NCBI GenBank assembly: GCA_902768975.1
Contig: CACXMZ010000006.1
Location: forward strand, 62,001 to 126,000
Origin: an uncultured Coriobacteriaceae bacterium
GTDB lineage: Bacteria; Actinomycetota; Coriobacteriia; Coriobacteriales; Eggerthellaceae
Length of the DNA stretch: 64,000 nt
Direction: 5' to 3'
Part shown: in pieces, positions 20,948-40,377 of the stretch
Position numbering within the stretch: the stretch's first letter is position 1
How the letters are laid out: each line of letters starts with the position of its first letter
Notes under the pieces: model-generated
What the model was told of the DNA's origin: nothing
The model's input: only the letters and a program-made list of their open reading frames with translations
Database searches by the model: none
Translations under genes and position numbers: made by a program

Positions 20948-23900
20948 ATGGGTGCGACGTCTGTTTTCCGCAAAGTTTTTTCCATTTTTATGGCTGTTGT
21001 CATGGTGCTTACCCTCCAGGTTTGGGTACCGCAAAATGCCTTTGCCGAAGAACCGGATACAAACGGGGAAGGCCCACAGCTACTCACATTCGGCGATCCA
21101 GACGATTCGGCTGAAACCGAAGGGGAAGTGCTAGCGGAAGAAGTGGTGGTGGAGGAAGAAACCATCACGCCTGTTGTTCCCGTGGACGAACCTGAAGCCT
21201 TGCTTGAGGACTATATTACGGTTCTTACCGCTGAAGTGGCGGAATCCTACGACACAGTAAGCGCAGAAGCGATGAACAGCGTTATCGTGAGCAACCAGAG
21301 GGGTTCGAGGCTCACCGGCGCCGAAAAGAATGCCTATGATCTGCTACGCAGCTTTATTGAAGAGATTGCAGCTGGCAGCGACGGAGTAGAGACGACCGAA
21401 ATCACGCTGAGTTTTAGGCAGTTGTTTCCTGAAAGCGTGCTAAATACTCGATATACAGCCGATGATCTAGGGGTTGAGGCTATTGCTGTTCAAGATCCCA
21501 CGAGTGGAGAATACAGTATTACCAAAGAGGCAAAAACTGCTACAGCCCAGCAATATAACCTGAACTTGGCCCAAGTGATTAATGCCCTGCTTTTTGATTG
21601 CCCCTACGAGTTGTTCTGGTATGAAAAAACAGCGGGCGTAGATTGCGGCAGGGGTAGTGTGGTTGGTGCCTCCTGGAATAATGGTGAATGGCTGGCGTAC
21701 TGCGACCCAGATGAAAGCGACTTTACGTTCACCTTTGCCGTGTCGAACGATTATGCGCCAAGCTCCTTCTATGTACATGAGTTTAATGGTGTTAACAAGC
21801 CCATTCAAACCAATCGCGAACGGATTCAAGACATTCAAACAGCGGTTACGAATGCGGCTGGCATTGTGGCCGATGCAGCTTCCGCCCAGGAAAGCGACTA
21901 CGACAAGCTGACTTATTACAAGGACCAAATTTGCGAGGCTGTGGTATATAACGAATTTGCATCGAAGAAAGAGAACGACGTTCCTTATGGCGATCCTTGG
22001 CAGCTTGTCTCTGTCTTCGACAAAGACCCAAGTACTAATGTGGTGTGTGAAGGCTACTCCAAGGCATTTAAGTATTTGTGCGATCTGACAACTTTTGATG
22101 ATGGCAGCCTTGACTGCTATACCGTCACGGGTGAAATGGGCGGCGGCACGGGCGCTGGCGGCCATATGTGGAACCTTGCTGTTGTTGGCGGCGAAAACTA
22201 TCTTGTTGACGTGACCAATTGCGACGAAGGTACCATCGGTGACCGGTCTCCAGAACCAGATGCCCTTTTCCTAGTGGGCAACGACAACCCCCAAGCAGCC
22301 ACGGTTGAGGGTCTTGATTCAATTACATATACCTTCACTCCGAACAACTCGCAAGTAACATATACCTACGATGAAGACACCGTGCAAGCTTTTCGTCTTG
22401 CCGAGCTCACCCTCGCAACAAGTGACTATAGCGTGCCCGAGGCCTACTTCTCCGACAGCTTCCATGTAAACGAGGATGCCACGAACTGGGCTTTGTACTA
22501 CGTGGAAGGTGCTAGCGGTACGGTAGCACCTGAAATATCCGTGCGGCGTAATGGAGCGGATTTGCCCTCTACTGCCTACACCATTTCTTATGAGCATAGT
22601 TTGGGATTTGATGCCAACGACCAGGAAATTTTCGAACCCGCCCAGCCGCCATTCGGTCCGGGCACCTATCGTGCCTGGGTACAGGGCACAGGGGAACAGG
22701 GTTTCGATGGTACGCTGGGGCCGCTGTGGATTGACGTGGAAAATCCCTACGATCTTTCTTCGCCCTTTGCTGACATTTACTTTGCTCAGGGCGCTAGTTA
22801 CCAGCACAATATCAACCCAATGAACTCCGACTACTACGTGATTCCGCTTAATCAGCTTGCCAGTGTGCTTGGCTCGCTCGAAGTGCGCGTGGGTGGCGAA
22901 AACAGCCAAGAAAACCCCCATGACGGTACCTTGCTTGATTCTAGTTCTTACGACGTCACCTACTACCCGGCAGACGTAGACGCGGCTTATGGCGAGGGCG
23001 GTGCTAGCTCGATTGCTGGTGCTGCGCTCGAAGGTATTCCAACGGCGCGTGGGGCCTACGTTGCGGTTATTTTGGGCAAGAGCCCCTATTCTGGCACGCA
23101 CGAGGTACTCATCGACGTGCAGGGCTCGATGGGCGATGCAGAGATTGCACGTATCGATGATCAGATGTACGCAGGAAGCCCCATTGAACCTGAGATTTCG
23201 GTTTCGCTTGGTGGTCAGAAACTGACTGAAGGTGCCGACTACACGGTTTCTTTCTCTGGCAACAACGGCCCAGGCACGGCAACCGTTACCATCGCGGATG
23301 CGTACCCCATCAAGGAGAACAAGACAGGGCAGCCAGAATTTCTTAACGATGGGCGTTTCCTAGCAGGCACGAAATCTGCCACGTTCGCCATTGGGCTCCA
23401 AGCGCCCACTAACCTTCAGTGGCTGGAGGAAGACGGATGGCAGTGGGCCACCTGGAACGGTGTAGATGGAGCTGAAAAATACTATGTGGAATTGAGAAAA
23501 GACGGCGCGACGTACGAATCTCCCTGTCTCGAGGTGGGTTCTCAGCCCGATGTGGCCGGCACGCAGCGCCGCCAAGACCTGACTTCTTTGATTAATAGTG
23601 GTGGTACAGGTGACTATACCTTTGTCGTATTTGCACAAGTAGGGGAATATCCAAATAATACCGACTCCGCTTCGGTTGAGTCTGCGCAGAAACACTTTAC
23701 TACCTATCAAGTCGTGGTGGAAAATGGAGCTGCCTCTGACACCCAGGGTAGACCGCTGCAATCCGGTACGGCCGTACCAGGCACGCCGATTCTTGCTCAG
23801 TATGATGTTCCTAGATATGAAGAGTACATGGCTTTTGACCACTTCGAAATCTTGTCAGGCTTGGATGAGACCGAGTTCGACCAGACCACTAGGTCATTCA

Positions 23901-25699
23901 TCATGCCAGCAAATGACGTGAGTATGCGTTCTATTTACTGCATCACCAAGATGGATCTGGGAAATATTTGGGGCGCTACGGCCCGTACGCCGCTTGTGCC
24001 CACGCAAAGCATTCCCTTTACCACTCAATTCGATCCAGACGGCGTTTTGAATAACTTAGTGGAATTCGCAGACCAATGGTGGAAGGACACGAGTACTGGG
24101 GCCGAAATCCATGTGGGAAGTAAAACCACGCCCATCGTGGGGCACACGTACCAGTTCTACGTGAAGCTTAAGCTTAAGGGCGACTATGGTTTTACCGCAG
24201 GAAAGTTCAAGCCCTTCATCGTGGGCGGCAGCGAAGTACCTGCTGCAAGGCAGCAAAAGACCTTGAACACCGATGGTACGGCAACGTTGACCTGGGGTCT
24301 TACCGCAACGTGCAAGGTGGTTGATATTACCGGGGCCACCGTCACGAACATTGTTGCGCGGACCTATAACGGTAAAGCCCAGACACAGGCTCCAGCGGTT
24401 AAGCTGGACGGCAAGACTCTTATGAGCGGCACCGACTACACGCTGTCCTACAAGAACAACAAGAACGCTGGCACGGCTACCGTCACCATAACGGGCAAGG
24501 GTAGCTATACGGGTAGCATCTCCAAGACCTTCAAGATCAGTCCTGCTTCAATTGCTAAGGCGACGGTCAGCGGGTTGAAAGACGTAACCTACAACGGTAA
24601 GGCACAAACTCAGGTACCAACAGTGAAACTTGGTAGTACTACGCTTAAGAGCGGCACGGACTACACCATTGCTTACAAGAACAATGTAAACGTAGGTACT
24701 GCAACAATAACCATAACAGGCAAGGGCAACTACACAGGTAGCGCGACCAAGACTTTCAAGATTAACAAGCCTTCCAAGATCTGGTACCGCCTGTTTGGCA
24801 ACACGCTTTTTGACACTATGCAAGAAATCGTCAAACAGGGCTGGTCTGGTAAAGGCGGTACGGTTATTATCGCAACTTCTGGAGGTTTTGCCGACGCGCT
24901 TTCTGCGGCAGGTATTGCAGGTCTAGAGGGTGCCCCTGTGTTGCTGGTTAATAAAAACTCGCTTCCTTCTCAGACTGAAAATGAACTTATACGCTTAAAG
25001 CCAAAGAAGATTATTATTGCTGGTGGCGACGGTGCTATCAGCAATAGGGTTGCTAACCAGATTAAAACTACTACAGGAGTTGCTCCGAGGCGTATCTATG
25101 GAGAAACCGCTACAGGAACAGCTGCAAAGCTAAATGAAGCTTATATAGGCAAATGGACAAGTGGAATAGCTATTCTGGCCACCAATGCTAGCTTCTATGA
25201 CGCTTTAAGTGTGGCCCCTATTTCGTATGCCAAACACTATCCTATCTTCTTAACAGAGGGTAAGAGAAGCGTTTCAAAGGAAACCATTAACGCCATGAAA
25301 AAGTGCGGTATAAAACAAGTCATTGTAGTGGGTGGTACTGGTGCCATTCCAGACAAGATTGTAAACACCCTTAAAAGCAACGGTATTGGTCTAAAGGTAC
25401 GTCTTTGGGGGGAGACCGCCTATGATACGAGTGCAGCTATTGCTAACTGGGGCCTTATTAATGGCATGAGCGCTAACAACATGGGGGTAGCAACTGGAGC
25501 GAGTTATTACGATGCTTTGTGCGGTGCCTCTTTGTGCGGCAAGAACAATGCTGTCCTTGTCTTGACAGAAAAGAATAAGGCCAGAAATACAGTTGTTCCA
25601 AAGAATAAGAACGCTCAGATTGGCAGAGCCTATGTCTTCGGTGGCGATGGTGCAGTGTCGGACAAGGTCTATAAGGCTTTCGAGGCTACAACTAAATAG
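20948..25699 (+). CDS. Large exported transglutaminase-like protein with cell-wall-binding type 2 repeats
   Basis: 1583 residues; AAGGAGG 6 nt before the start. Signal peptide ends NAFA-EE near residue 35. A transglutaminase-like domain is centred on Cys367 (VVCEGYSKAF), His406 (GGHMWNLAV) and Asp421 (LVDVTNCDE), the classic triad order. Long beta-rich segments follow, then two copies of an Ig-like repeat (YNGKAQTQ...LxSGTDYTxxYKNN...GTATxTITGKG) at about 1135-1275. Residues of about 1280-1583 are three cell-wall-binding type 2 repeats (FADALSAAGIAG, IIIAGGDGAIS, VIVVGGTGAIP, AYVFGGDGAVS), which hold such proteins to anionic wall polymers. The catalytic domain could cross-link or cleave peptide bonds in the wall; substrate unknown. 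Confidence 0.9.
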   Translation: MGATSVFRKVFSIFMAVVMVLTLQVWVPQNAFAEEPDTNGEGPQLLTFGDPDDSAETEGEVLAEEVVVEEETITPVVPVDEPEALLEDYITVLTAEVAESYDTVSAEAMNSVIVSNQRGSRLTGAEKNAYDLLRSFIEEIAAGSDGVETTEITLSFRQLFPESVLNTRYTADDLGVEAIAVQDPTSGEYSITKEAKTATAQQYNLNLAQVINALLFDCPYELFWYEKTAGVDCGRGSVVGASWNNGEWLAYCDPDESDFTFTFAVSNDYAPSSFYVHEFNGVNKPIQTNRERIQDIQTAVTNAAGIVADAASAQESDYDKLTYYKDQICEAVVYNEFASKKENDVPYGDPWQLVSVFDKDPSTNVVCEGYSKAFKYLCDLTTFDDGSLDCYTVTGEMGGGTGAGGHMWNLAVVGGENYLVDVTNCDEGTIGDRSPEPDALFLVGNDNPQAATVEGLDSITYTFTPNNSQVTYTYDEDTVQAFRLAELTLATSDYSVPEAYFSDSFHVNEDATNWALYYVEGASGTVAPEISVRRNGADLPSTAYTISYEHSLGFDANDQEIFEPAQPPFGPGTYRAWVQGTGEQGFDGTLGPLWIDVENPYDLSSPFADIYFAQGASYQHNINPMNSDYYVIPLNQLASVLGSLEVRVGGENSQENPHDGTLLDSSSYDVTYYPADVDAAYGEGGASSIAGAALEGIPTARGAYVAVILGKSPYSGTHEVLIDVQGSMGDAEIARIDDQMYAGSPIEPEISVSLGGQKLTEGADYTVSFSGNNGPGTATVTIADAYPIKENKTGQPEFLNDGRFLAGTKSATFAIGLQAPTNLQWLEEDGWQWATWNGVDGAEKYYVELRKDGATYESPCLEVGSQPDVAGTQRRQDLTSLINSGGTGDYTFVVFAQVGEYPNNTDSASVESAQKHFTTYQVVVENGAASDTQGRPLQSGTAVPGTPILAQYDVPRYEEYMAFDHFEILSGLDETEFDQTTRSFIMPANDVSMRSIYCITKMDLGNIWGATARTPLVPTQSIPFTTQFDPDGVLNNLVEFADQWWKDTSTGAEIHVGSKTTPIVGHTYQFYVKLKLKGDYGFTAGKFKPFIVGGSEVPAARQQKTLNTDGTATLTWGLTATCKVVDITGATVTNIVARTYNGKAQTQAPAVKLDGKTLMSGTDYTLSYKNNKNAGTATVTITGKGSYTGSISKTFKISPASIAKATVSGLKDVTYNGKAQTQVPTVKLGSTTLKSGTDYTIAYKNNVNVGTATITITGKGNYTGSATKTFKINKPSKIWYRLFGNTLFDTMQEIVKQGWSGKGGTVIIATSGGFADALSAAGIAGLEGAPVLLVNKNSLPSQTENELIRLKPKKIIIAGGDGAISNRVANQIKTTTGVAPRRIYGETATGTAAKLNEAYIGKWTSGIAILATNASFYDALSVAPISYAKHYPIFLTEGKRSVSKETINAMKKCGIKQVIVVGGTGAIPDKIVNTLKSNGIGLKVRLWGETAYDTSAAIANWGLINGMSANNMGVATGASYYDALCGASLCGKNNAVLVLTEKNKARNTVVPKNKNAQIGRAYVFGGDGAVSDKVYKAFEATTK

Positions 25700-25740
25700 G
25701 ATGCCAATAAGGGTTTGTCCATCATGTTAGTTGCCAATAA

Positions 25741-25770
25741 TACGGGTCGCGAAACGCGGCCCGTATTGTT
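25741..25770 (+). terminator. Terminator after the first wall-binding transglutaminase-like gene
   Basis: TACGGGTCGCG (25741-25751) and CGCGGCCCGTA (25755-25765) form an 11-bp stem with one wobble and a 3-nt loop, followed by TTGTTT. Confidence 0.75.
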
Positions 25771-25992
25771 TCGAAAATGTTGCTAATAAGCAACTTATTT
25801 TGGTGAATTATTTTGCGGAAAACCTGGCTCTAAAGTCTAGTAAAAAAGGGGATTTTTTAGTAAAATTTAGCCATATTGGAAAAGTCTATAAATTTGCCAC
25901 TTTTACCAGTAAATTTATACGTACTTCTTCCAGTAAAACTGGCAGTTTATCAGCACGTTTGGCAACGTATGGGCAAACAAGGAAGACTGAGC
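25771..25992 (+). other. AT-rich upstream region with recurring AGTAAAA motifs
   Basis: Four AGTAAA-type motifs (near 25839, 25859, 25909 and 25931) occur in the 150 bp before the second wall-binding gene; the last forms a small hairpin (CCAGT-AAA-ACTGG). They could be binding sites. No separate gene is visible. Confidence 0.35.
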
Positions 25993-28900
25993 ATGCAGAA
26001 AGGAAAGCAACATATCGTAGAGAGTGCCCAAAAACGCACCTCAAGTTTTTTGCAGCCTGGTGCGGCCGCACGGGTTCTTGTTGCCTTTTTCTTGGCCTTT
26101 AGTCTTTTCCCGGTTAATGCTTTTGCAGCCGGTTCGGACGTAACTACCAACCCCGACGTTCCGATTTTTACTACGGGGGGTGAAGATGCAGCAGACGAAA
26201 CAGCTATAAACATATTGCCTACTGAAACAGCGGGCAACCCCGATGAAGCTAATACCTTAAGCACCACACCAGATTCTGCCAGCACTAACAACGCCAATAA
26301 AGAAATCGCAATCCCATCCCTTACGGGCGAAACGCCTGAGCTCACCATATTTGAGCTTACGGAAGGAAACGACTACCTTCCAGCCACGTTTAATGGTGTA
26401 GCAAACGAAACTATTGGTATTGGCATCGAGCCTCTCAATCTTATTCAAAATGGTGACTATGATGCATTAGATGCTGCTTCAATCGCTTCGGTTTATGCCA
26501 CCACTGTTTCTGGTGCTGCGCCTACCGCCGATCAACGTAACCGCATTAAAGCACGTTTGAACACAGCTCTTATGAATGTTGAATACAGCACTTCCTATGA
26601 CGGCACAACAATGTGGTGCATTCTTGACGTGTCTGACCTGAAGGCCCCGCTTTCATCCAATGCGGTTGCATATGCCAAGGGCATTGTTGAAGAAGTCATT
26701 AATGCAAACCCAGACCTATTCTACGTAGGTGCAAGCTATGGCGCTGGCACGGGTACGTCAACCACTTCAACGGGTGGTAAGGTAACTATACTCACAAAGG
26801 TTCTCGTGCGTTATTACTATGCCCCGAGCACTGTTTCTTCTATGAAAACCAAATACGAAAACGCAATGAAAGGCATGCTTGACTGGGTTTCAAAAGATAA
26901 GAGTTACAAAAACAGTACCGACGCAGAAAAGGCAAAAGCAGTCCATGACTGGCTCGTGCGTAACTGCAAATACAATTACACCGCTTACCTTAAAGGTGGC
27001 CCAACAGGTTATAACTCGTGGAGCCCCTGGAGCGCCTATGGCGCAATCGTCGAAAAGGCACCTGTTTGCGAAGGCTATTCGCTCGCATTTATGGCTGCAA
27101 TGAGCCGCCTGGGCATTCAATCGAGCTTTGTTACTAATGCAGGCCATGGTTGGAATCGTGTTCGCTTAAATGTGAATGGTACCTATTATTGGTATAACCT
27201 CGACATTACCTGGGACGACCCGTTAAAGGCTGGCAATAATTCTGTCGATGGAGGATACAATAGTACTCCCTCAACGAAGTACTTCCTTAAGTCAGATGCA
27301 GTGTTTAAGGGTTTCAAAGATGGGACGCACGACAAATGGACTCCTGCGGGCACTGCGGGAAACAACACTACTTTCGACGGTACATGGGGAGGTGGTATTT
27401 ATCCACTCTCCGGTAATACGCATACAGTTACCTCCCTTTCTGTTTCGCCTACTACCTTAACTTTGGCAGATGACGGAAGTGCTCAGCTGAAGCTTTCGGC
27501 TACAGGATCTAACTTTGTTTTGGGTCAAGCAAAGTGGACGAGCTCGAACCCAAGTATTGCTTCCGTTAGTTCGGACGGTATTGTTACTTCAGGGTCTAGA
27601 ACGGGCACTGCAACCATAACGGTTACGCTAGACGGGAAAACAGCGAAGTGCACGGTAACCGTAAAGAAGCTTCCTCGTGTGAATAATTCGACCATTTCCT
27701 TGGCACCCAACACACAGCAAAGCGCTGAAAATCAATCACCTTTACAGTATAAAAGTGGCGTAGCTCATAGGCCTGTGCTCGTGGTTAAAATGAATGGTGT
27801 TACCCTTAAACTGAACACCGACTACACCATAACCTGGCCTTCAGACGCGACTAACCCAGGTGTAAAAACAGCAACCATTTATGGTAAAGGTAACTATGCT
27901 GGTTCTACTACCTTTAACTATACGGTCGTGTGCCCGCTTTCGAAAACATCTAAGTCTGGCAATGGTTTAAGCGGGGGCACCATAACCGTGAAAAAGGGTG
28001 AAAAGAAAGCACCTGTGATTACTTTCAGTGGCAGCAATAGTTACAAATATACCCTGAAAGAAGGTACGGACTATACCGTTACTTGGCCAAATGTTACGAC
28101 TACGGGTACAAAGAAGGTAACCATGACCGGGCGTGGCGCATGGACAGGCGTCTATACGTACAATCTTAAGGTTATTGGTGGTGCAACCTGGACTCGCCTT
28201 TGGGGCAACTCGCTATTTGATACTATGCAGTCCATTGTCAAAACGGGTTGGTCGACTACTGGTGGCACCGTAGTTATAGCAACGGCGGGCGGCTTTGCGG
28301 ATGCTTTATCAGCCGCAGGTGTAGCAGGTCTTACAGGTGCACCCATATTGCTCGTAAATAAAAATAGCTTACCCTCTCAAACAAAAACTGAGCTATCAAG
28401 GTTAAAGCCGAAAAGTATCATTATTGCAGGTGGTGATGGCGCCGTGAGCAATAAGGTGGCCAACCAGATTAAGTCTGTTACTGGCGTTGCACCAAAACGA
28501 ATCTACGGTGAAACAGCAACAGGTACGGCTGCTGCCCTCAATAAAGCATTTGCTAAACAGTGGACAAGTGGTGTTGCGATTTTGGCAACAAACAAGACGT
28601 TCTACGATGCGCTATCTGCTGCTCCAATTTCGTATTCTAAGCATTATCCAATCTTTTTATCAGAAGGCAATAGTAACGTTTCTAACGAAACAATTAATGC
28701 TATGAAGGCTTGCGGCATTAAACAAGTTATCGTCGTCGGTGGCGATGGCGCAGTGAAGGACAGCGTCGTTAATAAGCTTAAGAGAAACGGCATTGCTCTC
28801 AAGATACGTCTTTGGGGTGAAACAGCATATGATACTTCCAGGTCTATTGCGACCTGGGCAGTCCAAAATGGCATGAGTGCAAATAACATGGGCGTTGCAA

Positions 28901-29106
28901 CTGGCAAGAGTTTCTACGATGCCCTTTGTGGCGCTGCTCTTTGCGGAAAGAATAATGCTGCGCTTGTGCTTGCAGACTCCAAGAATTCTAAGAACTCAAC
29001 ATTTGCCAGCGCGAACAAAAACAGCATTTTGCAGGGCTATGTGTTTGGTGGCGACGGCGCCGTTCCCAATAGTGTTTACAACAAGTTTGTAAGTGCGACC
29101 AAGTAA
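25993..29106 (+). CDS. Second exported transglutaminase-like protein with cell-wall-binding type 2 repeats
   Basis: 1037 residues from ATG 25993 (AAGGAAG 7 nt upstream). Upstream in-frame starts lack a ribosome-binding site and would precede the signal peptide by 39 residues. The signal peptide ends NAFA-AG. Transglutaminase-like domain: KAVHDWLVRNCKYN, Cys359 (APVCEGYSLAF), His385 (NAGHGWNRV) and Asp404 (YNLDITWDD). A bacterial Ig-like domain of the Big2 type follows (SVSPTTLTL ... WTSSNPSIASVSSDG). Residues of about 732-1037 are three cell-wall-binding type 2 repeats, closely related to those of the upstream gene. Probably a wall-anchored cysteine hydrolase or cross-linking enzyme paralogous to its neighbour. 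Confidence 0.9.
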   Translation: MQKGKQHIVESAQKRTSSFLQPGAAARVLVAFFLAFSLFPVNAFAAGSDVTTNPDVPIFTTGGEDAADETAINILPTETAGNPDEANTLSTTPDSASTNNANKEIAIPSLTGETPELTIFELTEGNDYLPATFNGVANETIGIGIEPLNLIQNGDYDALDAASIASVYATTVSGAAPTADQRNRIKARLNTALMNVEYSTSYDGTTMWCILDVSDLKAPLSSNAVAYAKGIVEEVINANPDLFYVGASYGAGTGTSTTSTGGKVTILTKVLVRYYYAPSTVSSMKTKYENAMKGMLDWVSKDKSYKNSTDAEKAKAVHDWLVRNCKYNYTAYLKGGPTGYNSWSPWSAYGAIVEKAPVCEGYSLAFMAAMSRLGIQSSFVTNAGHGWNRVRLNVNGTYYWYNLDITWDDPLKAGNNSVDGGYNSTPSTKYFLKSDAVFKGFKDGTHDKWTPAGTAGNNTTFDGTWGGGIYPLSGNTHTVTSLSVSPTTLTLADDGSAQLKLSATGSNFVLGQAKWTSSNPSIASVSSDGIVTSGSRTGTATITVTLDGKTAKCTVTVKKLPRVNNSTISLAPNTQQSAENQSPLQYKSGVAHRPVLVVKMNGVTLKLNTDYTITWPSDATNPGVKTATIYGKGNYAGSTTFNYTVVCPLSKTSKSGNGLSGGTITVKKGEKKAPVITFSGSNSYKYTLKEGTDYTVTWPNVTTTGTKKVTMTGRGAWTGVYTYNLKVIGGATWTRLWGNSLFDTMQSIVKTGWSTTGGTVVIATAGGFADALSAAGVAGLTGAPILLVNKNSLPSQTKTELSRLKPKSIIIAGGDGAVSNKVANQIKSVTGVAPKRIYGETATGTAAALNKAFAKQWTSGVAILATNKTFYDALSAAPISYSKHYPIFLSEGNSNVSNETINAMKACGIKQVIVVGGDGAVKDSVVNKLKRNGIALKIRLWGETAYDTSRSIATWAVQNGMSANNMGVATGKSFYDALCGAALCGKNNAALVLADSKNSKNSTFASANKNSILQGYVFGGDGAVPNSVYNKFVSATK

Positions 29107-29113: not shown

Positions 29114-30133
29114 TCAACGTATTTCGAATTCTGATGCGTCTGGGAGAATTTGCTCGAAGGCGGCGTGGATTTGGTTTTTAACAATTTCAAAGTGATCAGG
29201 TTGAATATCGCCGTCGTTAATGCATATCACATGTAGGCTCTGGTTTGTTATGCATTGTGATAGTTCTTCCGTTCGCGCGAGGGTATCTTCCCAAAGGTAA
29301 AAGGTTTTACCAAATTTGACAGAGCGGGGCACAAAGCTTCCTTTGGCAAACTGCCAGTTTTCCATTAGCCACTGGTTTACGTCGGTCCTATCTCGGAATT
29401 TATGGCTCGATGTTTCCGACAAGATTTCTTCTTCCTTGCTCCACACTTCTTCGAAGGTGCTTTTTAAAAATGAATTGGGGATATGCAGTTCTTTAAAACC
29501 ATAAAAGAATGGGTATGGCATCATCAGGAGGGACGAAAAGAGCAATCGGCCGTATTTCGGGTTGACCCATTTCAGGAAATTTTCTCGGACTGTTTTGCGA
29601 GCAGCGAAATGTTCATTAAGAATCGCTACATTATTAATCGGGGGTGTGAACCAGTCGTTCTTTACCGTTCGGAAGGGCATAAGAATAGCCGAAGAACAAG
29701 GTAGACCGTTTTTAAAGAAATCGGTTTTTCTGACTGGACTTATAAGAAATGTATCATCGTTAAAGTAAACAAAATGGTCGGTTAGCCCGTTAATACGATG
29801 GATATTTAGCTCAATAGGATGCGACGAAAAAGTTGGAAGCCACTGGTTAGGAATGAAATCTTCATGACGAACTATATTGAGCTTCGGACAATCCTTGTTA
29901 AGCCACTCAGGTGTATGCCCCCAGGTAATAAAATGAACTTTATTAACCCATGGGGAAAACTTTTCAATACCTCTGAACCAGTATTTCAATAGTCCCCAGT
30001 CGCGGAAACGAAATTCTAAGGCAGCCTCGTCGCTTGTAGAGAGATAAGCATCTCTGCATGCTTGCCACGCTGGATCGTCACCGTCCACCCAGGGGATAAC
30101 AAAATCTATTGGATGTGTCGCCTCTTTGTTCAC
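29114..30133 (-). CDS. Stealth-family sugar-phosphate transferase
   Basis: 339 residues. Conserved region 1 IDFVIPWVDGDDPAW (10-24), region 2 FRFRDWGLLKYWFRGIEKFS (about 41-60) continuing VNKVHFITWGHTPEWLN, and a later YFNDDTFLISPV. Members transfer hexose-1-phosphate from a nucleotide sugar to build phosphodiester-linked polysaccharides such as capsules. GTG 30133 follows AGGATAGG. It is convergent with the wall-binding gene, 7 nt apart with no visible terminator, and divergent from the deacetylase-like gene. First gene of the surface-polymer locus. Confidence 0.9.
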   Translation of the reverse strand: MNKEATHPIDFVIPWVDGDDPAWQACRDAYLSTSDEAALEFRFRDWGLLKYWFRGIEKFSPWVNKVHFITWGHTPEWLNKDCPKLNIVRHEDFIPNQWLPTFSSHPIELNIHRINGLTDHFVYFNDDTFLISPVRKTDFFKNGLPCSSAILMPFRTVKNDWFTPPINNVAILNEHFAARKTVRENFLKWVNPKYGRLLFSSLLMMPYPFFYGFKELHIPNSFLKSTFEEVWSKEEEILSETSSHKFRDRTDVNQWLMENWQFAKGSFVPRSVKFGKTFYLWEDTLARTEELSQCITNQSLHVICINDGDIQPDHFEIVKNQIHAAFEQILPDASEFEIR

Positions 30134-30164
30134 ATAAAGCCTATCCTGAAAGAACCATGCCTAT

Positions 30165-30170
30165 ATTATA
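30165..30170 (-). promoter_or_regulatory. -10 hexamer of the Stealth-type gene
   Basis: TATAAT on the minus strand, 31 nt before the GTG start at 30133, giving a leader of about 25 nt that carries AGGATAGG. Confidence 0.5.
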
Positions 30171-30270
30171 GGGCCTAGCTGCATGTTGGTCACAACTCTT
30201 CGTGCCATACAGTGTGGAGTTTTTGATTCTGCTGCATTTAGTGTTTCTGTAAAACCACCTTACTATCTTT

Positions 30271-30276
30271 TATAAT
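30271..30276 (+). promoter_or_regulatory. -10 hexamer for a leaderless transcript
   Basis: A perfect TATAAT ends 6 nt before ATG 30283. No Shine-Dalgarno is present in the gap. Confidence 0.6.
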
Positions 30277-30282
30277 TTAGAT

Positions 30283-31407
30283 ATGTTAAACCTTGCAAAT
30301 AGCGCCAAAGATTTATTGTCGTTGGCTGGATACCGTTCCCCACAAAACATAATCGTGTTTGAATCTGATGACTGGGGCGGTATTCGTATACCGTCATCCG
30401 AAGCCCTAGAGGAGCTTCAAGGGAAATATCCAGACTTACCCCTTGATCATTATCAAATTTATGATGGCCTTGAATCGGCAGAGGACTTAGCTTTATTGGG
30501 CGATACATTGAGGAGATTTGAAACTAAGTCTGGATTCCCTAAGTTTACTCTGAACTATGCAACTGCCAATCCTGTATTTGATATGCGCATCATCGAGGAT
30601 GAGGAATTGTCACCCTTTTCCTATGAGCCTATTACAGATACTTTTGAACGATATGACGGGTCTGACTCTGCCCTTAACTATTACTTAAACAATCCAAGTT
30701 CTAGTAGCTGCTTTCTTGCCCAGCTTCATGCCAGGGAGCATCTTAATGTAACTCGCTGGATGCAGGGCGCTAGAAACATCGACCATCAGAGGGACGCTTT
30801 CATGCTTGGTGTTCTGGGATTTAATACAGAAAAATACAACAGCATGGATCCTTTAAACACGAGCAATGTACTCGTTAATAGGACGCAATATATCACTGAC
30901 GCAGCTAAATTGTTTAAGGAACAATTCGGGTTTGTTAGTAGTAGTTTTATTCCGCCTTGTTATGTGATTAATGGCGACGACTATGAAGTACTTAGCCGTG
31001 TTGGTGTTGAAACAATTCAGGGCGCGTGGTTAATGAATAGGCCAAAACCAGACGGTAGTTTATCGCGACGCCTTTCAGTACCTGGGAAAATAAACCGTTA
31101 TTCGCAGGTTCAACTTGTGCGAAACTGTTCTTTTGAGCCGTCGAAGTATTTCTTCCATGCTCTAGACGAGGAAGAAAGCGTTACACGAGCAATGGCCGAG
31201 ATTTCTGCAGCGCTTAAGAGGAAGCAGCCTGCCATTATTTGCAGTCATAGGGTTAACTTTACTTCCAGAATTAGTAAAGCGAACAGGGACTATTCATTAC
31301 GCTGCCTGAATAAACTTCTTAATCGTATTGTTGAAGAGGTGGAAGATCCAGTCTTTATGTTCTCTGACCAGCTCGGTAAAGCAATCAGAGAAGCAAAGGG
31401 ACTCTAA
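30283..31407 (+). CDS. Polysaccharide deacetylase-like protein of the glycopolymer locus
   Basis: 374 residues, no signal peptide. The opening FESDDWGGIRIPS, the block QLHAREHLNVTRWMQGARNI and the late IICSHRVNFTS fit the glycoside hydrolase/deacetylase superfamily proteins found in capsule-type loci. The Asp-Asp pair and the two His-containing motifs would form a metal site. A TATAAT exactly 6 nt before the ATG argues for a leaderless message. It lies divergent from the Stealth gene and overlaps the convergent GNAT-like gene by 4 nt at its 3' end. The substrate is unknown, and deacetylation is inferred from the superfamily only. Confidence 0.7.
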   Translation: MLNLANSAKDLLSLAGYRSPQNIIVFESDDWGGIRIPSSEALEELQGKYPDLPLDHYQIYDGLESAEDLALLGDTLRRFETKSGFPKFTLNYATANPVFDMRIIEDEELSPFSYEPITDTFERYDGSDSALNYYLNNPSSSSCFLAQLHAREHLNVTRWMQGARNIDHQRDAFMLGVLGFNTEKYNSMDPLNTSNVLVNRTQYITDAAKLFKEQFGFVSSSFIPPCYVINGDDYEVLSRVGVETIQGAWLMNRPKPDGSLSRRLSVPGKINRYSQVQLVRNCSFEPSKYFFHALDEEESVTRAMAEISAALKRKQPAIICSHRVNFTSRISKANRDYSLRCLNKLLNRIVEEVEDPVFMFSDQLGKAIREAKGL

Positions 31408-32306
31408 GACTGAAGCTTCTTTATTGAGTGATACAGTTCAATCAGGTGATTCATTATACTGTTTCGGTAATAATACCCATTGTACACAGCGTCTTCTAAA
31501 CTGCCGTACCTTTTTTTATAGTCGTATTTTCCGCCAAGGAGGTAAATTTCGCCGACCTTTTTCTCGATGAGCTTTTTAAGGTACAGATCGTACAGAACCT
31601 GCCCTGCGGAAAGCTTTTTATACTTGGGGTCGTAGCTAAGGTTTTCTAAATAAACTACAGGAGTTTGTTCACAAGATAAAATGACTGCGAGAGGTGTGTC
31701 ATTGTTTTTTGCCATGAGGGCATAGATGTCGGTGACATGATACTTATCGCAGTATTCTTCGGGCGATAAGTTGTATTGAGTGCTGTAAGTTTCTTCTTTG
31801 AACTTGAAGTAACTGTTCCAAATAGGTATTGCAGTTTTGTCATTAGCGCTGGCTTCAAAGAGGCATATTTCGCCCATCTCTTCTTCGATAATGCGTTTTT
31901 CGCGCCGAATGTTGTACCGTCCTTTGCTTGAAAGGCGTGAATCTAAATCATCTTTGGTTGCAGGTAGAAGAATTCGAAAATGATTCGTTTGTGATAAGCC
32001 GGGTAAGCTGTTTAATATGTTTGACAACTTTATTCGTTTTGCCTGTGGGTAAGAAGCAAAACAGTGTTTTACTATATGCTTAAAAGCCTTTTCGCTTGCT
32101 GGAACTAACCATAAGCCAAGCTCAATATCTTTTCCCTTGTCTAGCGTTTCGTAATAGAAATCTTCGGAAGCAGATGTGTAGTGCCACAAAGAGAAACATG
32201 TGTCCGAAATAGCGGGCCATAAATCGTATCTGTTATATATGAATGCGGGGAGCTGGTCTGCACGTGGTGTCGAAGCGCACTTTGTAATACTGTAGTTTTC
32301 CGTCAT
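31404..32306 (-). CDS. FemAB/BioF2-like GNAT transferase
   Basis: 300 residues. The motif SSKGRYNIRREKRIIEEE at about 127-144 and a C-terminal LGGKYDYKKRYGSLEDAVYN are typical of the CelD/FemAB branch of GNAT acyltransferases. In polysaccharide clusters these modify a sugar by N- or O-acylation or add an amino acid. The start overlaps the upstream flippase stop by 4 nt (ATGA-type coupling), so both belong to one minus-strand operon. Its acceptor cannot be told from sequence. Confidence 0.75.
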   Translation of the reverse strand: MTENYSITKCASTPRADQLPAFIYNRYDLWPAISDTCFSLWHYTSASEDFYYETLDKGKDIELGLWLVPASEKAFKHIVKHCFASYPQAKRIKLSNILNSLPGLSQTNHFRILLPATKDDLDSRLSSKGRYNIRREKRIIEEEMGEICLFEASANDKTAIPIWNSYFKFKEETYSTQYNLSPEEYCDKYHVTDIYALMAKNNDTPLAVILSCEQTPVVYLENLSYDPKYKKLSAGQVLYDLYLKKLIEKKVGEIYLLGGKYDYKKRYGSLEDAVYNGYYYRNSIMNHLIELYHSIKKLQS

Positions 32307-33637
32307 GTTATATAGCCTTTTTCAGTTGTATTGAGCCACTTTGAAACAATAATCTTCTTCGACTGTATGGAAATGGCAAATTGTACTGCCATAGCCAAAA
32401 GAACGGCGTATACATCAATATAGCCTACAAGTGCAAAAGCAATAACGAGATACATAAGATTTGCTATAAGAGTAATAAATGTGTCTGCTTTTACTTTTCC
32501 TATTGCGTAAAAATAGGGATGTAGGGCCACGTAAGAAATTCCATAGGCCTGGATAATAAACAGTGCCAAGAACAGAACAATATTGACTGCGTATTCTTTG
32601 CCAAAAAACAGTTCAAGCAATGTGGGCGCTGCAAAAATGCAGAGCACGAATACTACTACCAGAAGAGCGGCAATGTAATTTCTGATTTTGAGAACCGCCT
32701 TGTAAGCATCCCTGCTTTTGTCACGGGATACCAATTCAGATATTTGTGGCATGATAGCTGCAGAAATAGGGCTTGTTAGCAATGAAAAAGCTTGCAAAAG
32801 CTGCTTATATACTTTGTAAATTGCGACCATTTCTACAGATACAGCAGAAATAATAAAGACATCTAAATACTTAACCGGAATGTCAACCGTGGTGCCTAAA
32901 TTGGACCATATAGTAAAGTTCACCATTTTTTTGTCTGAGAACTGTAGGCTTGTCTTAAATAATCTGCGAATTGAATACTTTCGTGAAATGAAAATTAGAG
33001 CAACAACCAGAAGGGAAATATGCTTGATAATGTCTGTTGCAACATATATGGTAACTATGCCAAAAAATGTGCAAGAAAAAGGCCCAAAAATATATATCGA
33101 AAGGCACAACAATTTTAGTGCCGCGTTGACAACCCCGTGTATTGCGACCCAGTCGAACTTATCAAACAATCTCAAAATTCCTATAGAGCTCCCTTCGATA
33201 TGAAAAACAATTTCGAGCGAAAAAAGAAATGCAGCAGAAATGAGCATTTCGGACCAGCTTAAGAACGACGCCACAATTGGGAGCAGAAGTAGGGCCACGG
33301 CCATCCCTAGTACTGCAGTAACGCCATCTACAAGAAAGCCAGTTTTCATGTTGGCAAGTAATCTGTTTTCGTCGTTATGGACCTTGGCATCTGTCCCAAA
33401 CTTTATAACTGCCTGCCAGGATTGGAAATTTGCTATTCCGTCAATTAGTATCATGTACTGTTGGGCGAGGACAAGTAGCCCATATGCGGATACTTCTAGG
33501 AACTGCACTGTTACAGCTAGCGAAATAAGCTCGATAACACTGGCTGCCGTAGTTCCAAAAAAGGCTATAGAAGCGTTTTTGAACAGCTTATTCCAAAAGG
33601 GTGATGAATGCAGTCTTTTCGTTATAAAGTTAGACAC
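32303..33637 (-). CDS. Wzx-like lipid-linked oligosaccharide flippase
   Basis: 444 residues with about 12-14 hydrophobic segments and the polysaccharide-synthesis (MVF/RfbX) pattern near the N-terminus (SIAFFGTTAASVIELISLAV, then SAYGLLVLAQQY). Expected to move an undecaprenyl-linked repeat unit across the membrane. GTG 33637 is preceded by AAGGG. It is divergent from the glycosyltransferase at 33780 and coupled to the GNAT-like gene. Two ABC exporters also lie in this locus, so at least two export routes are encoded. Confidence 0.85.
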   Translation of the reverse strand: MSNFITKRLHSSPFWNKLFKNASIAFFGTTAASVIELISLAVTVQFLEVSAYGLLVLAQQYMILIDGIANFQSWQAVIKFGTDAKVHNDENRLLANMKTGFLVDGVTAVLGMAVALLLLPIVASFLSWSEMLISAAFLFSLEIVFHIEGSSIGILRLFDKFDWVAIHGVVNAALKLLCLSIYIFGPFSCTFFGIVTIYVATDIIKHISLLVVALIFISRKYSIRRLFKTSLQFSDKKMVNFTIWSNLGTTVDIPVKYLDVFIISAVSVEMVAIYKVYKQLLQAFSLLTSPISAAIMPQISELVSRDKSRDAYKAVLKIRNYIAALLVVVFVLCIFAAPTLLELFFGKEYAVNIVLFLALFIIQAYGISYVALHPYFYAIGKVKADTFITLIANLMYLVIAFALVGYIDVYAVLLAMAVQFAISIQSKKIIVSKWLNTTEKGYIT

Positions 33638-33713
33638 AAATTGCCCTTGTAGTATTCGTAGTAAATATCTTTTACCATTCTATAGGTATTTCTATATAAA
33701 CTTTTGGTTTGGG

Positions 33714-33719
33714 TATAAT
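33714..33719 (+). promoter_or_regulatory. -10 hexamer of the 33780 glycosyltransferase operon
   Basis: A perfect TATAAT, 61 nt before ATG 33780. The leader carries AAAAGGAAG. No good -35. Confidence 0.45.
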
Positions 33720-33779
33720 TTCTCCAGGTTTGCCCTATTATTCTATTAGGCAAGTTTTAAAAGGAAGCAATACACCAAA

Positions 33780-34463
33780 ATGGCCGCAGATGTTCTTCTA
33801 ATTATTCCTGCTTATAACGAGGCGGACAATATCGCACGTGTTGTTGGGCATTTAGAAGCAAATTATCCCCAGTATGACTATGTTGTCGTGAATGACGGAT
33901 CAACAGACACTACTGCTGAAATATGTCGTGCAAACAAGTATCGATTCCTAGATTTGCCCACGAATTTAGGGCTCTCTGGTGCCTTTCAGACAGGAATAAA
34001 ATATGCCTATAGGCATAATTATTCTTATGCCGTTCAATTCGATGCAGATGGGCAACACCTTCCGGAATATATTGAAAGCTTAATTGAGGCATGTGCAAAT
34101 AGCGATATAGCAATCGGGTCGCGTTTTCTTACTGAAGAAAAGCCCCGCAGTATGCGCATGTTTGGCAGTACGCTCCTAGCTGCCATGATCCGCATTACAA
34201 CAGGGAAGCATTTATCGGATCCTACGTCTGGAATGCGAGCATATAGCAGGCGCGCGATACAGGAACTTGTTCAAGGTCCAAATTTGGGGCCAGAACCAGA
34301 TACAATCGCGTATCTTATGAGAAAAAAAGCTCTACGAGTTTCCGAAGTGCAGGTATCGATGGGGGAACGGCTAGCTGGCGAAAGCTATCTTAATTGGCGT
34401 AATTCATCGTTATATATGGCGCGCATGGCGCTTTCAGTATTGGTAATCCAGTTTTTTAGGTAG
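33780..34463 (+). CDS. Family 2 glycosyltransferase, dolichol-phosphate-sugar synthase type
   Basis: 227 residues, cytoplasmic face of the membrane. LLIIPAYNEADNIARVVGHL starts the nucleotide-binding fold. VVVNDGSTDTTAE and FDADGQHLPEYIE (DxD-like metal site) match polyprenyl-phosphate mannose/glucose synthases, and SDPTSGMRAYSRRAI is the acceptor-region motif of that branch. It probably loads a sugar onto polyprenyl phosphate. The next gene (DUF2304) overlaps at the stop codon, a common pairing. Confidence 0.88.
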   Translation: MAADVLLIIPAYNEADNIARVVGHLEANYPQYDYVVVNDGSTDTTAEICRANKYRFLDLPTNLGLSGAFQTGIKYAYRHNYSYAVQFDADGQHLPEYIESLIEACANSDIAIGSRFLTEEKPRSMRMFGSTLLAAMIRITTGKHLSDPTSGMRAYSRRAIQELVQGPNLGPEPDTIAYLMRKKALRVSEVQVSMGERLAGESYLNWRNSSLYMARMALSVLVIQFFR

Positions 34464-34861
34464 TGACTACTGTGACTTTTGCACTTCGAATAGTTTTAAT
34501 TTGCGCCGCAGTTTTTGTCTTTATTTTCGTCATCCTTAATGTACGGAAATCCAGAATGCGTATTGAAGATTCGTTGTTCTGGGTAGCAATGTCGCTGTTA
34601 ATCCTGTTTTTATCAATTTTCCCTCAGGTAGGAACACTGTTTTCTGAGCTTCTTGGCTTTTATGCCCCAGTCAACTTTGTGTTCCTCTTCTTTATCTTCG
34701 TGTTGTTTGCAAAATGCTTTGCAATGAGCAGGCATGCGTCACAACTTGAATCGAAAATTAAGGAACTAGCTCAACAAATTGCAATCGATAATCTTGAACA
34801 TTACGAGCGAACGCATGCCAGTCGGTCACTAGAGTCAAAAGACAGCGCAAGCACAGACTAA
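34463..34861 (+). CDS. DUF2304 membrane protein
   Basis: 132 residues. Three hydrophobic helices (IVLICAAVFVFIFVILNV, LFWVAMSLLILFLSIFPQV, FVFLFFIFVLFAKCFAM) with RKSRMRIEDSLFW between the first two, the DUF2304 signature, and a charged coiled-coil-like C-terminus. GTG 34463 overlaps the stop of the preceding polyprenyl-phosphate glycosyltransferase. This family regularly accompanies such transferases and is thought to be a partner or membrane anchor; its exact job is not established. Confidence 0.85.
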   Translation: MTTVTFALRIVLICAAVFVFIFVILNVRKSRMRIEDSLFWVAMSLLILFLSIFPQVGTLFSELLGFYAPVNFVFLFFIFVLFAKCFAMSRHASQLESKIKELAQQIAIDNLEHYERTHASRSLESKDSASTD

Positions 34862-34866
34862 ATAGT

Positions 34867-35925
34867 TTGGCCCTGAAGACCGATAGGTTCACTTTGAACA
34901 CGCAGCCAAAAGTAAGCATAGTAATTCCAGTTTATAACGCCGAGGCAAGTCTTGGCCGTACACTCAAGTCTTTAGAATCGCAAGAATATGGCAATCTGCA
35001 AATAGTGCTCATAGATGACGGGAGCACAGATTCTTCTTCTTCCATGGCTGATAGTTTCGCATCTAACTGTGCAAGCCCTGAGGTTCTAGTGCGACATATA
35101 GATAACTGCGGGGCTTATAAAGCGCGTGAGGTTGGTATCGATATTTCTGATGGCGACTACGTCGCCTTTTGCGATGCTGGTGACGTTTTGGAGAGCAGCT
35201 TTGTTACTCGCATGGTCGAAATGGCTACGGTTTCGGATGCCGATATTTGTGTCTGTGCTTTTCTAAGAACCGATGGCAATACCAACAAAGTTGAAATGAA
35301 GGATTTCGGATCAGGATGCGTTAGCGTTGACAATGAGTGCGGGTGGCTCTCATCTGTTAATACATCTTTATGGAATAAACTATTTAAGAGGCAGTTGCTA
35401 GAGAAGCGTATTTTGCTTAATAAAACTCCGCGTATTGGCGAAGATGCAATGCTGCTTTTTTCAATTTATCCATCTGCGAAAAAAATAGCTTTTACAGATC
35501 AGGTTCTATACACGTATTTCGTTGAAGACGGTTCTGCAATGAGCACCTTAAGTACTGCGGAATTATCGGATATTGTTGAATGCTGGGTTCAGGTGCGCAA
35601 TAAGACTGTTAGCTCTCAAACTGGCTTTGAGCGAATTATCGACCTTGCGGCTATGGTTCATTTGGGCGTTTCGGCCCAATTGGTCATCGCGAGGACGCCA
35701 AATGAAAATCCTAAAAAAGTTGAAGCGACTATTAGCCGTGAGCTCTCTTCTTCATTTCCCCTATATCGCAATAGTGTATTTGTGACAAATGAGTATGTTA
35801 AAAAGTTTCCTCAGATGAAAAAGATTGCAGCTATGCATTTCTGCGTTACGCATAATCTGATGGCCTTGATGGCCCGCATATATAGATTTGCTTCAGAGCG
35901 TCTTAATATAAAACTAGGCTGGTAG
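34867..35925 (+). CDS. Family 2 glycosyltransferase
   Basis: 352 residues. GT-A fold start VSIVIPVYNAEASLGRTLKS, VLIDDGSTDSSSSM, and a modified metal site FCDAGDVLESSFV where many relatives have DADD. No membrane helix. The start is uncertain: TTG 34867 lacks a ribosome-binding site, and TTG 34894 (after GATAGG) would still retain the whole domain. It is third in the operon with the polyprenyl-phosphate glycosyltransferase and DUF2304. It adds a sugar to the polymer repeat; donor and acceptor unknown. Confidence 0.85.
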   Translation: MALKTDRFTLNTQPKVSIVIPVYNAEASLGRTLKSLESQEYGNLQIVLIDDGSTDSSSSMADSFASNCASPEVLVRHIDNCGAYKAREVGIDISDGDYVAFCDAGDVLESSFVTRMVEMATVSDADICVCAFLRTDGNTNKVEMKDFGSGCVSVDNECGWLSSVNTSLWNKLFKRQLLEKRILLNKTPRIGEDAMLLFSIYPSAKKIAFTDQVLYTYFVEDGSAMSTLSTAELSDIVECWVQVRNKTVSSQTGFERIIDLAAMVHLGVSAQLVIARTPNENPKKVEATISRELSSSFPLYRNSVFVTNEYVKKFPQMKKIAAMHFCVTHNLMALMARIYRFASERLNIKLGW

Positions 35926-35933
35926 GAAACCCT

Positions 35934-36752
35934 TTACAGCTTAATTTCAAGAGGCATATGGTTTACTCGCTGGTCTTCAGGGGGAAGCTTTTTCCAGTCG
36001 CCAAATTGAATTTCTAATACCTTTTCTGCGTTTTTTGGCACCATAATTTCTGTGTTTTCGAAAGGGTGCGCCCTTACGGGAAAAACGTCATTGTATGGCC
36101 ACTCGTTTGCTTCTTCCCCGCGGGATGAAATGAGCTCACTAACTTCACTGTTGTACTTTTGTATATGTTGATCATATTTATCAAAAAGCCATCTTTTACT
36201 AACAGGCATTAAAAGGATGTGCGAGACGCAGCGATATATTGTGCCTAGTATTTTTATTATTGGCTTACAGTTTGCTGTTATTACAGCAACATTCTTTGAT
36301 ATATATAATTCTTTCCAGAATCGGGCGCCCCGCCGGTACTTTCTTAGCTCTTTTTCGTCGGTGGTGACGTAGTCAAATGGCATTATGTCAATAAAAACGC
36401 CATGATTCATTTTGGTATGCTTTCTTCCAGGCTCGACAAATAACGTACCTTTTCTTCTAACCTTTATAAAGTAGACCGCCGCATTTGGATCAGTGCTGAA
36501 ATGTTGGACAACAAGGCTCTCTGGAAGTTTCGATGGTGCTATTTCGAGGAATTTGTTATAGTCGTCGCGCATCATGGCAATGTCGATGTCGTCATCCCAG
36601 GGAATAAAGCCGTTGTGTCTTAGAGCCCCCAGATTTGTCCCCCCAATGGCAAAATACGTTAAACCATTTTCTTCGCAGACTTTCTTAACATCTTCCAAAA
36701 TGGAGAGCTCGGCTTCTTGAACTTTGCGCAGTAGTTCCGAATTGTATTCCAT
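35934..36752 (-). CDS. LicD-family phosphotransferase
   Basis: 272 residues. The core motif GGTNLGALRHNGFIPWDDDI at about 38-57 is the LicD nucleotidyltransferase-fold signature, with metal-binding Asp residues in WDDDIDIAM. Relatives transfer phosphocholine or other phospho-substituents from a CDP-linked donor onto teichoic acid or glycan. No choline-uptake or licABC genes are in view, so the donor is open; a CDP-glycerol supply is implied by tagD downstream. It lies 30 nt after a family 2 glycosyltransferase in the same direction. Confidence 0.9.
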   Translation of the reverse strand: MEYNSELLRKVQEAELSILEDVKKVCEENGLTYFAIGGTNLGALRHNGFIPWDDDIDIAMMRDDYNKFLEIAPSKLPESLVVQHFSTDPNAAVYFIKVRRKGTLFVEPGRKHTKMNHGVFIDIMPFDYVTTDEKELRKYRRGARFWKELYISKNVAVITANCKPIIKILGTIYRCVSHILLMPVSKRWLFDKYDQHIQKYNSEVSELISSRGEEANEWPYNDVFPVRAHPFENTEIMVPKNAEKVLEIQFGDWKKLPPEDQRVNHMPLEIKL

Positions 36753-36782
36753 GCTTTTCCTTAATAACCAGCTGTCGAAAGA

Positions 36783-37736
36783 TTATTTGCGTTCAAAGTG
36801 GCTGACTACGAGCCAGATATAGTAGTAGAGTCTGTCAAAATAAATCTTTAAAAAGAGCTTCGCTTTGAACAAAAGGGGTACCTCTTTATTCTTAAATACG
36901 GAAGCCTGATTTTCCTTAAGAAGCTTAGCGTAGTATTTATATGTTGCTTTGTCGCTCCCTCCCTGAAGCATTATGTTTAGCAATCTATACAGTACACGTG
37001 CCTGAACATATTCGGCCTCTTGCATTAATTTGGGTCTGTGCTCTTTAATATGCTCGTAGAATCTGTTGCCAACAGTTAGATATGAGAGATGCTTCTCATT
37101 AAAAGACGCGAGGCTAACCGAAGTCGAGGACTGTCGATAGTTGTACGTCTTTATTGTTCCAAAAGCAACAGTCTTAGCTTTTAGGAAGGTCTTCCAAATA
37201 AAACTAAAGTCTTCCCCATAATGTTCGTCAGGCATGAAAGTTACATTTTCTACCAGTGTGCTCCTAAATAATTTATTGACCAAATACCACATATAGTCGT
37301 CGTGGCCTTTATAAATAACTTTTTTGAGAGCATCTTCGCCACTCAGGACTTCTTCGCATTGCTTTGGTAAATCCCGTTTTATGGGCGAACAGGCAATATC
37401 ATGTTTACTATCTAGTAGTTGAACCATATTGCTGATGTGGTCAGGATCAATGGTGTCATCACTGCCCGAAAAGGTAATATACGCTCCCTTTACTGCCGTT
37501 AATCCAGTATTCAGTGCTCCGCTTACACCTTTGTTGTGCTGATGGATAATATGAATACGGCTATCGTTTTTCGCGTAGTAATCGCAGATTTCAGGGCACC
37601 TATCGGTACTCCCATCATCTACAAGGATAATATCTAGATTCCGATACTCCTGTTGTGTAATGGAGTCTAGGCATTCAGCTAGATACTCTTCCGTGTTGTA
37701 TACAGGTACTATTATGGATACGAGGGGGCTGTCCAT
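36783..37736 (-). CDS. Family 2 glycosyltransferase
   Basis: 317 residues. VSIIVPVYNTEEYLAECLDS, IILVDDGSTDRCPEICD and a metal-site region TFSGSDDTIDPDHI (SDD in place of the common DADD). A long C-terminal helical part (about 200-317) is typical of capsule glycosyltransferases. AGAGG lies 5 nt before the ATG. First gene of a two-gene minus-strand unit with licD. Confidence 0.88.
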   Translation of the reverse strand: MDSPLVSIIVPVYNTEEYLAECLDSITQQEYRNLDIILVDDGSTDRCPEICDYYAKNDSRIHIIHQHNKGVSGALNTGLTAVKGAYITFSGSDDTIDPDHISNMVQLLDSKHDIACSPIKRDLPKQCEEVLSGEDALKKVIYKGHDDYMWYLVNKLFRSTLVENVTFMPDEHYGEDFSFIWKTFLKAKTVAFGTIKTYNYRQSSTSVSLASFNEKHLSYLTVGNRFYEHIKEHRPKLMQEAEYVQARVLYRLLNIMLQGGSDKATYKYYAKLLKENQASVFKNKEVPLLFKAKLFLKIYFDRLYYYIWLVVSHFERK

Positions 37737-37897
37737 TTTTCCTCTTTAGGTTTGTCTTGAACAGAAATACTATAGGTCAAAAAAAGTATGAGCCATTAAT
37801 CTTCAAACATTTATCGTACTGAAATTCTAATAAATCAAAAGCTTTCTTAATCCACGCGGCCTGCTGGCACCCGTCGAATTGCGTCACGAAGAACGGC

Positions 37898-37903
37898 TAT
37901 AAT
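37898..37903 (+). promoter_or_regulatory. -10 hexamer upstream of the GT2-GT4 fusion gene
   Basis: TATAAT 33 nt before ATG 37936, followed by a leader with GGGAGAA. The 200-bp divergent gap holds nothing else recognisable. Confidence 0.45.
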
Positions 37904-37935
37904 ATTTACAATTATCAAGTCGTTTTGGGAGAATT

Positions 37936-40194: not shown

Positions 40195-40201
40195 TTTTTA
40201 T

Positions 40202-40229
40202 TTGCACTCGGGGCGCTTTTTGCTACAAT
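40202..40229 (+). promoter_or_regulatory. Promoter of tRNA-Glu
   Basis: TTGCAC (40202-40207), a 16-nt spacer and TACAAT (40224-40229), 31 nt before the mature tRNA. A TTGACA at 40252-40257 is too close to the tRNA to act as -35. Confidence 0.6.
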
Positions 40230-40260
40230 AGGCAAGCTGTTTTGAGCAACCTTGACATAT

Positions 40261-40335: not shown

Positions 40336-40345
40336 CCGACTATCG

Positions 40346-40368: not shown

Positions 40369-40377
40369 AATATGGCG

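Follow-up and report, generated by a model that had tools for sequence, protein, structure and literature searches.

Paired CWB2-anchored proteins with transglutaminase-like heads next to a predicted teichoic-acid-type locus in an uncultured Eggerthellaceae bacterium

Surface proteins of C. difficile, including the Cwp proteins and SlpA, carry three tandem CWB2 repeats as a non-covalent anchor, and these repeats are described as binding the polymer PSII (PMC4973711). The locus that probably makes PSII, with its glycosyltransferase and polymer-attachment genes, is located immediately downstream of cell-wall protein genes, and PSII is tied to mannose genes (PMC4973711). Transglutaminase-like (TG) proteins with solved structures include TglA of S. 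pyogenes (9CRN) and the TGase of S. suis (4XZ7; PMC10318531). A further enzyme with a Cys-His-Asp triad, HvyA of the BTLCP family, works at a glycan surface in Caulobacter, where it limits the capsule and sets a precedent for a TG-like enzyme acting on surface glycan display (PMC4241560). HvyA is periplasmic and differs from the proteins reported here in having no wall anchor.

Here, we report two adjacent genes, P1 and P2, in which TG-like heads are combined with CWB2 anchors. Both are located in the window, meaning the whole stretch of 64,000 nucleotides that was analysed, from an uncultured Eggerthellaceae bacterium with a genome of 1.89 Mb that is 96% complete. Unlike the C. difficile proteins, P1 and P2 belong to the actinobacterial class Coriobacteriia, and a search of titles and abstract openings found nothing treating TG heads with CWB2, nor CWB2 in Coriobacteriia. 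As far as the literature searched shows, the parts and the pairing of CWB2 with a polymer in C. difficile are known, whereas the TG-CWB2 combination and a positional rule across the class are new.

P1, P2 and the neighboring polymer locus

P1 and P2 are arranged head to tail, with the IF3 and L20 genes immediately upstream of P1 and the polymer locus directly downstream of P2. The features of the pair and of the locus, in window coordinates, are as follows.

20948..25699, plus strand: P1, 1583 amino acids, with a TglA-like TG head, an Ig-like region and three CWB2 repeats (ORF, Pfam, alignment, AlphaFold model, fold)
22046..22210, plus strand: P1 triad codons C367, H406 and D421, the TG core covering approximately residues 300-450 (alignments)
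24788..25669, plus strand: P1 CWB2 triple, residues 1281-1574 (PF04122)
25876..29106, plus strand: P2, an ORF of 1076 amino acids from a TTG, with a TglA-like TG head, Big_2 and three CWB2 repeats (ORF, Pfam, fold)
27067..27204, plus strand: P2 triad codons C398, H424 and D443 (alignments)
28195..29076, plus strand: P2 CWB2 triple, residues 774-1067 (PF04122)
29114..45447, no strand assigned: first part of the polymer locus, with Stealth, GT2, flippase-like, LicD and GtrA proteins and a TagGH-type ABC transporter (Pfam)
45514..50025, plus strand: three LCP proteins and a TagO/WecA-type transferase (47860-48987) (Pfam, NCBIfam)
51746..56389, plus strand: second TagGH pair, two TagF-type transferases and the glycerol-3-phosphate cytidylyltransferase TagD (54621-55106)
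60673..63294, minus strand: fusion of GT2 and TagF-type parts

The first-pass annotation had described two exported proteins, each with a Cys-His-Asp TG-like site, Ig-like domains and three CWB2 repeats, directly before a wall-polymer locus. The ORFs, Pfam matches, alignments and folds bear out this architecture, and Pfam and NCBIfam matches confirm that the neighboring locus is of teichoic-acid type. PF04122 (CWB2) recognizes three tandem repeats at the C-terminus of each protein (E 1.3e-46 in P1 and 3.7e-42 in P2), and both triples match Cwp6, Cwp8 and SlpA-type chains of C. difficile. For P2, Pfam also reports Transglut_core above its cut-off (E 1.3e-7) and Big_2 (1e-10). The Ig-like region of P1 matches Sgo0707_N2 (1.3e-9), and its TG domain, for which there is no Pfam match at E<=1, is seen by the family alignment, by fold and by NCBIfam NF045980 at 4e-6, far below the cut-off of that model. 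Both proteins are predicted to be exported, as judged by eye from a signal-peptide-like hydrophobic N-terminal stretch with an Ala-x-Ala-like end. The TTG start of P2 is probably wrong and the real start the ATG at 25993, because a purine-rich AAGGAAG precedes that codon and the orthologue in locus L144 begins at the equivalent place. Matches of the CWB2 parts to DAGK_cat, lipid-kinase and phosphofructokinase models were rejected as cross-matches of the repeats that are marginal or below cut-off, and NCBIfam S-layer_Clost matches weakly through the same part, far below its cut-off.

The locus downstream of the pair contains a teichoic-acid set: a TagO-type initiator, a polyol-phosphate cytidylyltransferase, TagF-type transferases, a TagGH exporter and LCP ligases. 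TagD scores above the cut-off of TIGR01518, whereas the TagO-type protein falls below the cut-off of its nearest NCBIfam model. Just past the window, TarI (D-ribitol-5-phosphate cytidylyltransferase) is above cut-off and adjoins a dehydrogenase; the same outer part of the locus also contains a DltB-like MBOAT, which is below cut-off. The host genome has four PF04464 (TagF-type) genes, three of them in the locus inside the window and one a further ∼33 kb on, and PF04464 is present in 6/6 genomes of the genus. Two proteins inside the locus (30283-31407 and 58893-60680) have no Pfam match at E<=0.001. Predicted from genes alone, the polymer is of teichoic-acid type (TagD, TagF), in contrast to PSII of C. 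difficile, which is tied to mannose genes (PMC4973711).

P1 and P2 are, on balance, probably secreted cysteine enzymes of TG-like type that dock on the polymer of the neighboring locus, a reading for which we infer export, ligand, catalysis and substrate. The heads would act at the cell surface, the Ig-like domains would space them from the wall, and the three CWB2 repeats together would dock each protein non-covalently on the teichoic-acid-type polymer of the adjacent locus.

Triad and fold of the transglutaminase-like heads

Both heads place a Cys-His-Asp triad in a papain-like core, as in the transglutaminase-like superfamily. The first-pass annotation had named mutated triads in close relatives as a finding that would count against it; these were sought and none was found, the triad being invariant in 59/59 aligned TG relatives, a set gathered by similarity to the heads, by which broken triads are somewhat disfavored. 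In the 49 full-length proteins Tyr, Cys, His, Trp and Asp are all invariant, and the Trp beside the His and the Cys-x-Gly-Tyr region are conserved across relatives that share 20-40% identity. TG relatives are found in 84/396 genomes of the class with the P2 query and in 41/396 with the P1 query, and the nearest named relatives of P2 come from uncultured Eggerthellaceae of deer and goat gut. One relative (locus L083, genome G041) has a single in-frame TAG in its reading frame.

Structure prediction, proposed at the outset as a check, yielded AlphaFold models with mean pLDDT of 80.4 (P2) and 75.3 (P1), and both heads fold best onto TglA (9CRN), with Z 20.9, rmsd 3.0 and 232 residues aligned for P2, and Z 17.4, rmsd 3.7 and 246 residues aligned for P1. 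The match covers the complete head, N-terminal part included, with Cys, His and Asp aligned, and profile comparison with TglA agrees (E 9e-34 for the P2-type profile, with the three residues aligned, and 1.8e-11 for the P1-type). The second match is the S. suis TGase (4XZ7), which shares the core fold and the aligned triad at Z 12.6 (P2) and 9.4 (P1); matches below it are near the level of common arrangements. Identity to TglA and 4XZ7 is 14-19%, and the matched chains differ from P1 and P2 in lacking both CWB2 and the Ig stalk. Our literature search found no paper on TglA, and the likeness to it is one of fold and sequence.

The most likely activity of such a head is cysteine acyl transfer on surface proteins. 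A peptide substrate at the cell surface would be bound by the triad as an acyl-thioester, and the acyl group would then pass to an amine, giving a cross-link, or to water, giving cleavage or deamidation. Cross-linking and hydrolysis are about equally likely, with cross-linking slightly favored by the names, TGase or Tgl, of the two closest relatives of solved structure. Remodeling of peptide bridges by the heads, also raised by the first-pass annotation, is speculation.

A hydrolytic role is a serious competitor that we rate somewhat below even. Here, the heads would be surface cysteine peptidases or deamidases that trim surface proteins or limit surface glycan, with anchoring as above. The transglutaminase superfamily includes proteases and deamidases (PMC10318531), the Cys-His-Asp triad of HvyA is required to prevent capsulation (PMC4241560), and the weaker fold matches of both heads include the LapG protease (Z 8-9) and putative cysteine proteases. 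Nevertheless, TglA is the best and clearly separated match, a streptococcal TGase is the second, and the LapG score is about that expected of chance arrangements.

Separate inheritance of heads and anchors

TG heads of this kind occur on many anchors. The 49 full-length TG proteins, P1 and P2 included, comprise 10 with SLH, six with Choline_bind_3, six with DUF5648, four with CWB2 and one with ChW, and one TG relative closes with LPGTG followed by a hydrophobic tail. In this set CWB2 is carried by P1, P2, the orthologue in congener G002 and one protein in G168. Within the genus there are seven TG-CWB2 proteins in 5/6 genomes; a search of G005, made with the P1-type profile only, found none. 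The P1 orthologue of congener G004 is 56% identical over 512 amino acids and is cut by a contig end before the anchor. None of 88 TG ORFs at 75 named loci (L148-L222) carries CWB2 as detected with a profile from this genus that might overlook divergent repeats. Other Coriobacteriia Transglut_core proteins share the head type and triad with P1 and P2 and differ in their anchors (SLH, choline-binding, DUF5648, ChW or LPXTG). Heads of this type are commonly held by non-CWB2 modules in the relatives, and so this polymer is not a requirement of the enzyme itself.

Beyond the window, the same polymer island encodes one more TG-like surface protein, the third (L336:4130-6880; G000:C6:148129-150879). 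This protein combines a TG head at its C-terminus with eight repeats of the ricin-B lectin type and has no CWB2, and its gene adjoins one for a ricin-lectin glucosaminidase.

A whole-genome search of the host found six CWB2 repeats, all in P1 and P2. The repeats are present in 6/6 genomes of the genus, the five congeners having 13 to 51 each. Read from sequence, the strict PILL motif (P[ILV][ILV][LV]) occurs in 2/6 host repeats and in 4/6 if the Pro is ignored, and the second repeat of both proteins reads PIFL; the Pro is reported to be dispensable (PMC4973711). All three repeats are needed in C. difficile (PMC4973711), and by analogy the repeats of each triple would be expected to dock jointly.

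Comparison of P1 with P2 gives 74% identity for the anchors (71% at the DNA level) and 30% for the heads, which rules out simple whole-gene duplication as the origin of the pair. The relation is the reverse in the orthologues of P2, with 75% for the head and 43% for the anchor in G002, and 59% and 45%, respectively, in G004, where the anchor is of a longer type. These identities indicate that heads and anchors are inherited separately. In a set of 44 anchor triples drawn from six genomes, 27/44 have their nearest neighbor within their own genome, compared with a mean of 8.2 in shuffles and a count as high in 0/1000. Congener G002 shows no same-genome excess, its within- and between-genome identities being equal (43.9). 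Anchors could come to cluster by genome through gene conversion between neighbors, through duplication or through selection for a common ligand, and the clustering seen may come from within-genome duplication. One could imagine that the CWB2 triple of Coriobacteriia serves as a lineage-specific docking key, homogenized in each genome to its own wall polymer, with heads swapped freely between anchors; we hold this general picture tentatively and with more doubt than belief. If true, surface display would be a modular plug-and-socket system in which the anchor tracks the polymer and the head tracks the function.

Two pairs of CWB2 triples (L227/L241 and L230/L242) are 99.7% identical between G002 and G001, other anchors of the two genomes being different, as would follow if there had been recent transfer, if the species were very close or if the assemblies were mixed. 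Additionally, the CWB2 profile weakly matches glycosyltransferase-like or ABC-transporter-like ORFs (L284:13951-16173 and L290:5227-7170), perhaps through fold resemblance or as false matches.

CWB2 genes and polymer loci across Coriobacteriia

In order to examine the neighborhood of CWB2 genes more widely, we used one locus of ∼20 kb per genome (two are shorter, at contig ends) from 20 other Coriobacteriia genomes, none from the genus of the window, picked from 121 genomes with CWB2 in a way that favored few repeats. Further CWB2 loci of G312, G098, G311, G277, G092, G168 and G079 were left out. The markers were the 24 polymer proteins of the window, with thresholds fixed before a single run. 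At least one polymer-gene homologue was near in 14/20 CWB2 loci, in 0/20 control loci, which come from 7 of the 20 genomes, and in 1/44 TG loci without CWB2, some of them under 20 kb at contig ends. At least two were near in 10/20, 0/20 and 0/44, respectively. For at least two markers, Fisher tests for the CWB2 loci give p of 2e-4 against the control and 1e-6 against the TG-only loci, for genomes that are not independent, six of the 20 belonging to the single genus g48. Counted by hand per genus, at least one marker is found in 9/15 and at least two in 6/15. Distance to LCP or TagF alone, judged by eye, is short (<∼22 kb) in only five of the 20 genomes (G241, G264, G092, G020 and G175), a weak signal beside the clear one from the 24 markers. 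As read from these neighborhoods, a link between CWB2 and polymer genes exists and is not universal. The neighborhood statistics suggest that the same CWB2-polymer rule applies in a separate phylum of gut bacteria, in which case gene position would help to predict what many surface proteins dock on.

The proposal of the first-pass annotation that these enzymes are anchored to the neighboring polymer is upheld in part. The C. difficile precedent and the co-location of CWB2 with polymer loci favor it, and the frequent occurrence of the same heads on non-CWB2 anchors counts against it. By gene position and precedent, the CWB2 triples of P1 and P2 would bind an anionic wall polymer non-covalently. 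Alternatively, CWB2 could bind another glycan or peptidoglycan, the adjacency reflecting a general surface-gene island, as surface genes may be grouped in an island even when their products do not interact. In keeping with this alternative, which we consider unlikely, 6/20 CWB2 loci have no polymer marker within reach, ricin-lectin wall enzymes are found at the same island, and PF04464 has no match in 12/20 CWB2 genomes; the CWB2 ligand therefore need not be TagF-made, and a polyol-phosphate polymer cannot be assumed generally. However, among loci of TG genes with other anchors just 1/44 has a polymer marker nearby, and therefore being a surface gene is not enough, and CWB2 repeats bind PSII in C. 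difficile (PMC4973711). A role for P1 and P2 chiefly as adhesins or as structural proteins of the wall, with the TG fold a binding module of little catalysis, would suit their large size and Ig-like repeats and is very unlikely, as the invariant Cys, His and Asp and the conserved Trp and Cys-x-Gly-Tyr argue for catalysis. For docking on the adjacent polymer, the reading we prefer, P1 and P2 form a convenient test pair, having unlike heads and closely similar anchors, and being the only CWB2 proteins found in the genome, with one polymer locus.

A scan of the region for promoters and terminators gave signals little above shuffles. In congener G004, one flank of the P2 orthologue carries orthologues of the window genes at 13696 (79%) and 15370 (71%), and the opposite flank carries a polysaccharide pyruvyl transferase. 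On another G004 contig, IF3 and L20 adjoin GtrA, GT2 and TagF-type relatives. Given these conserved neighbors, the P1/P2 region resembles a stable island of surface genes whose content changes. A gene for an exported protein with ricin-B lectin and NlpC/P60 parts (16963-19302), a further wall enzyme with another anchor, is located at the edge of the same island, just upstream of IF3-L35-L20. Across the P1/P2 genes and the polymer locus, between 20000 and 64000 of the window, G+C content drops from ∼0.55 to 0.39, which suggests foreign or fast-exchanging content.
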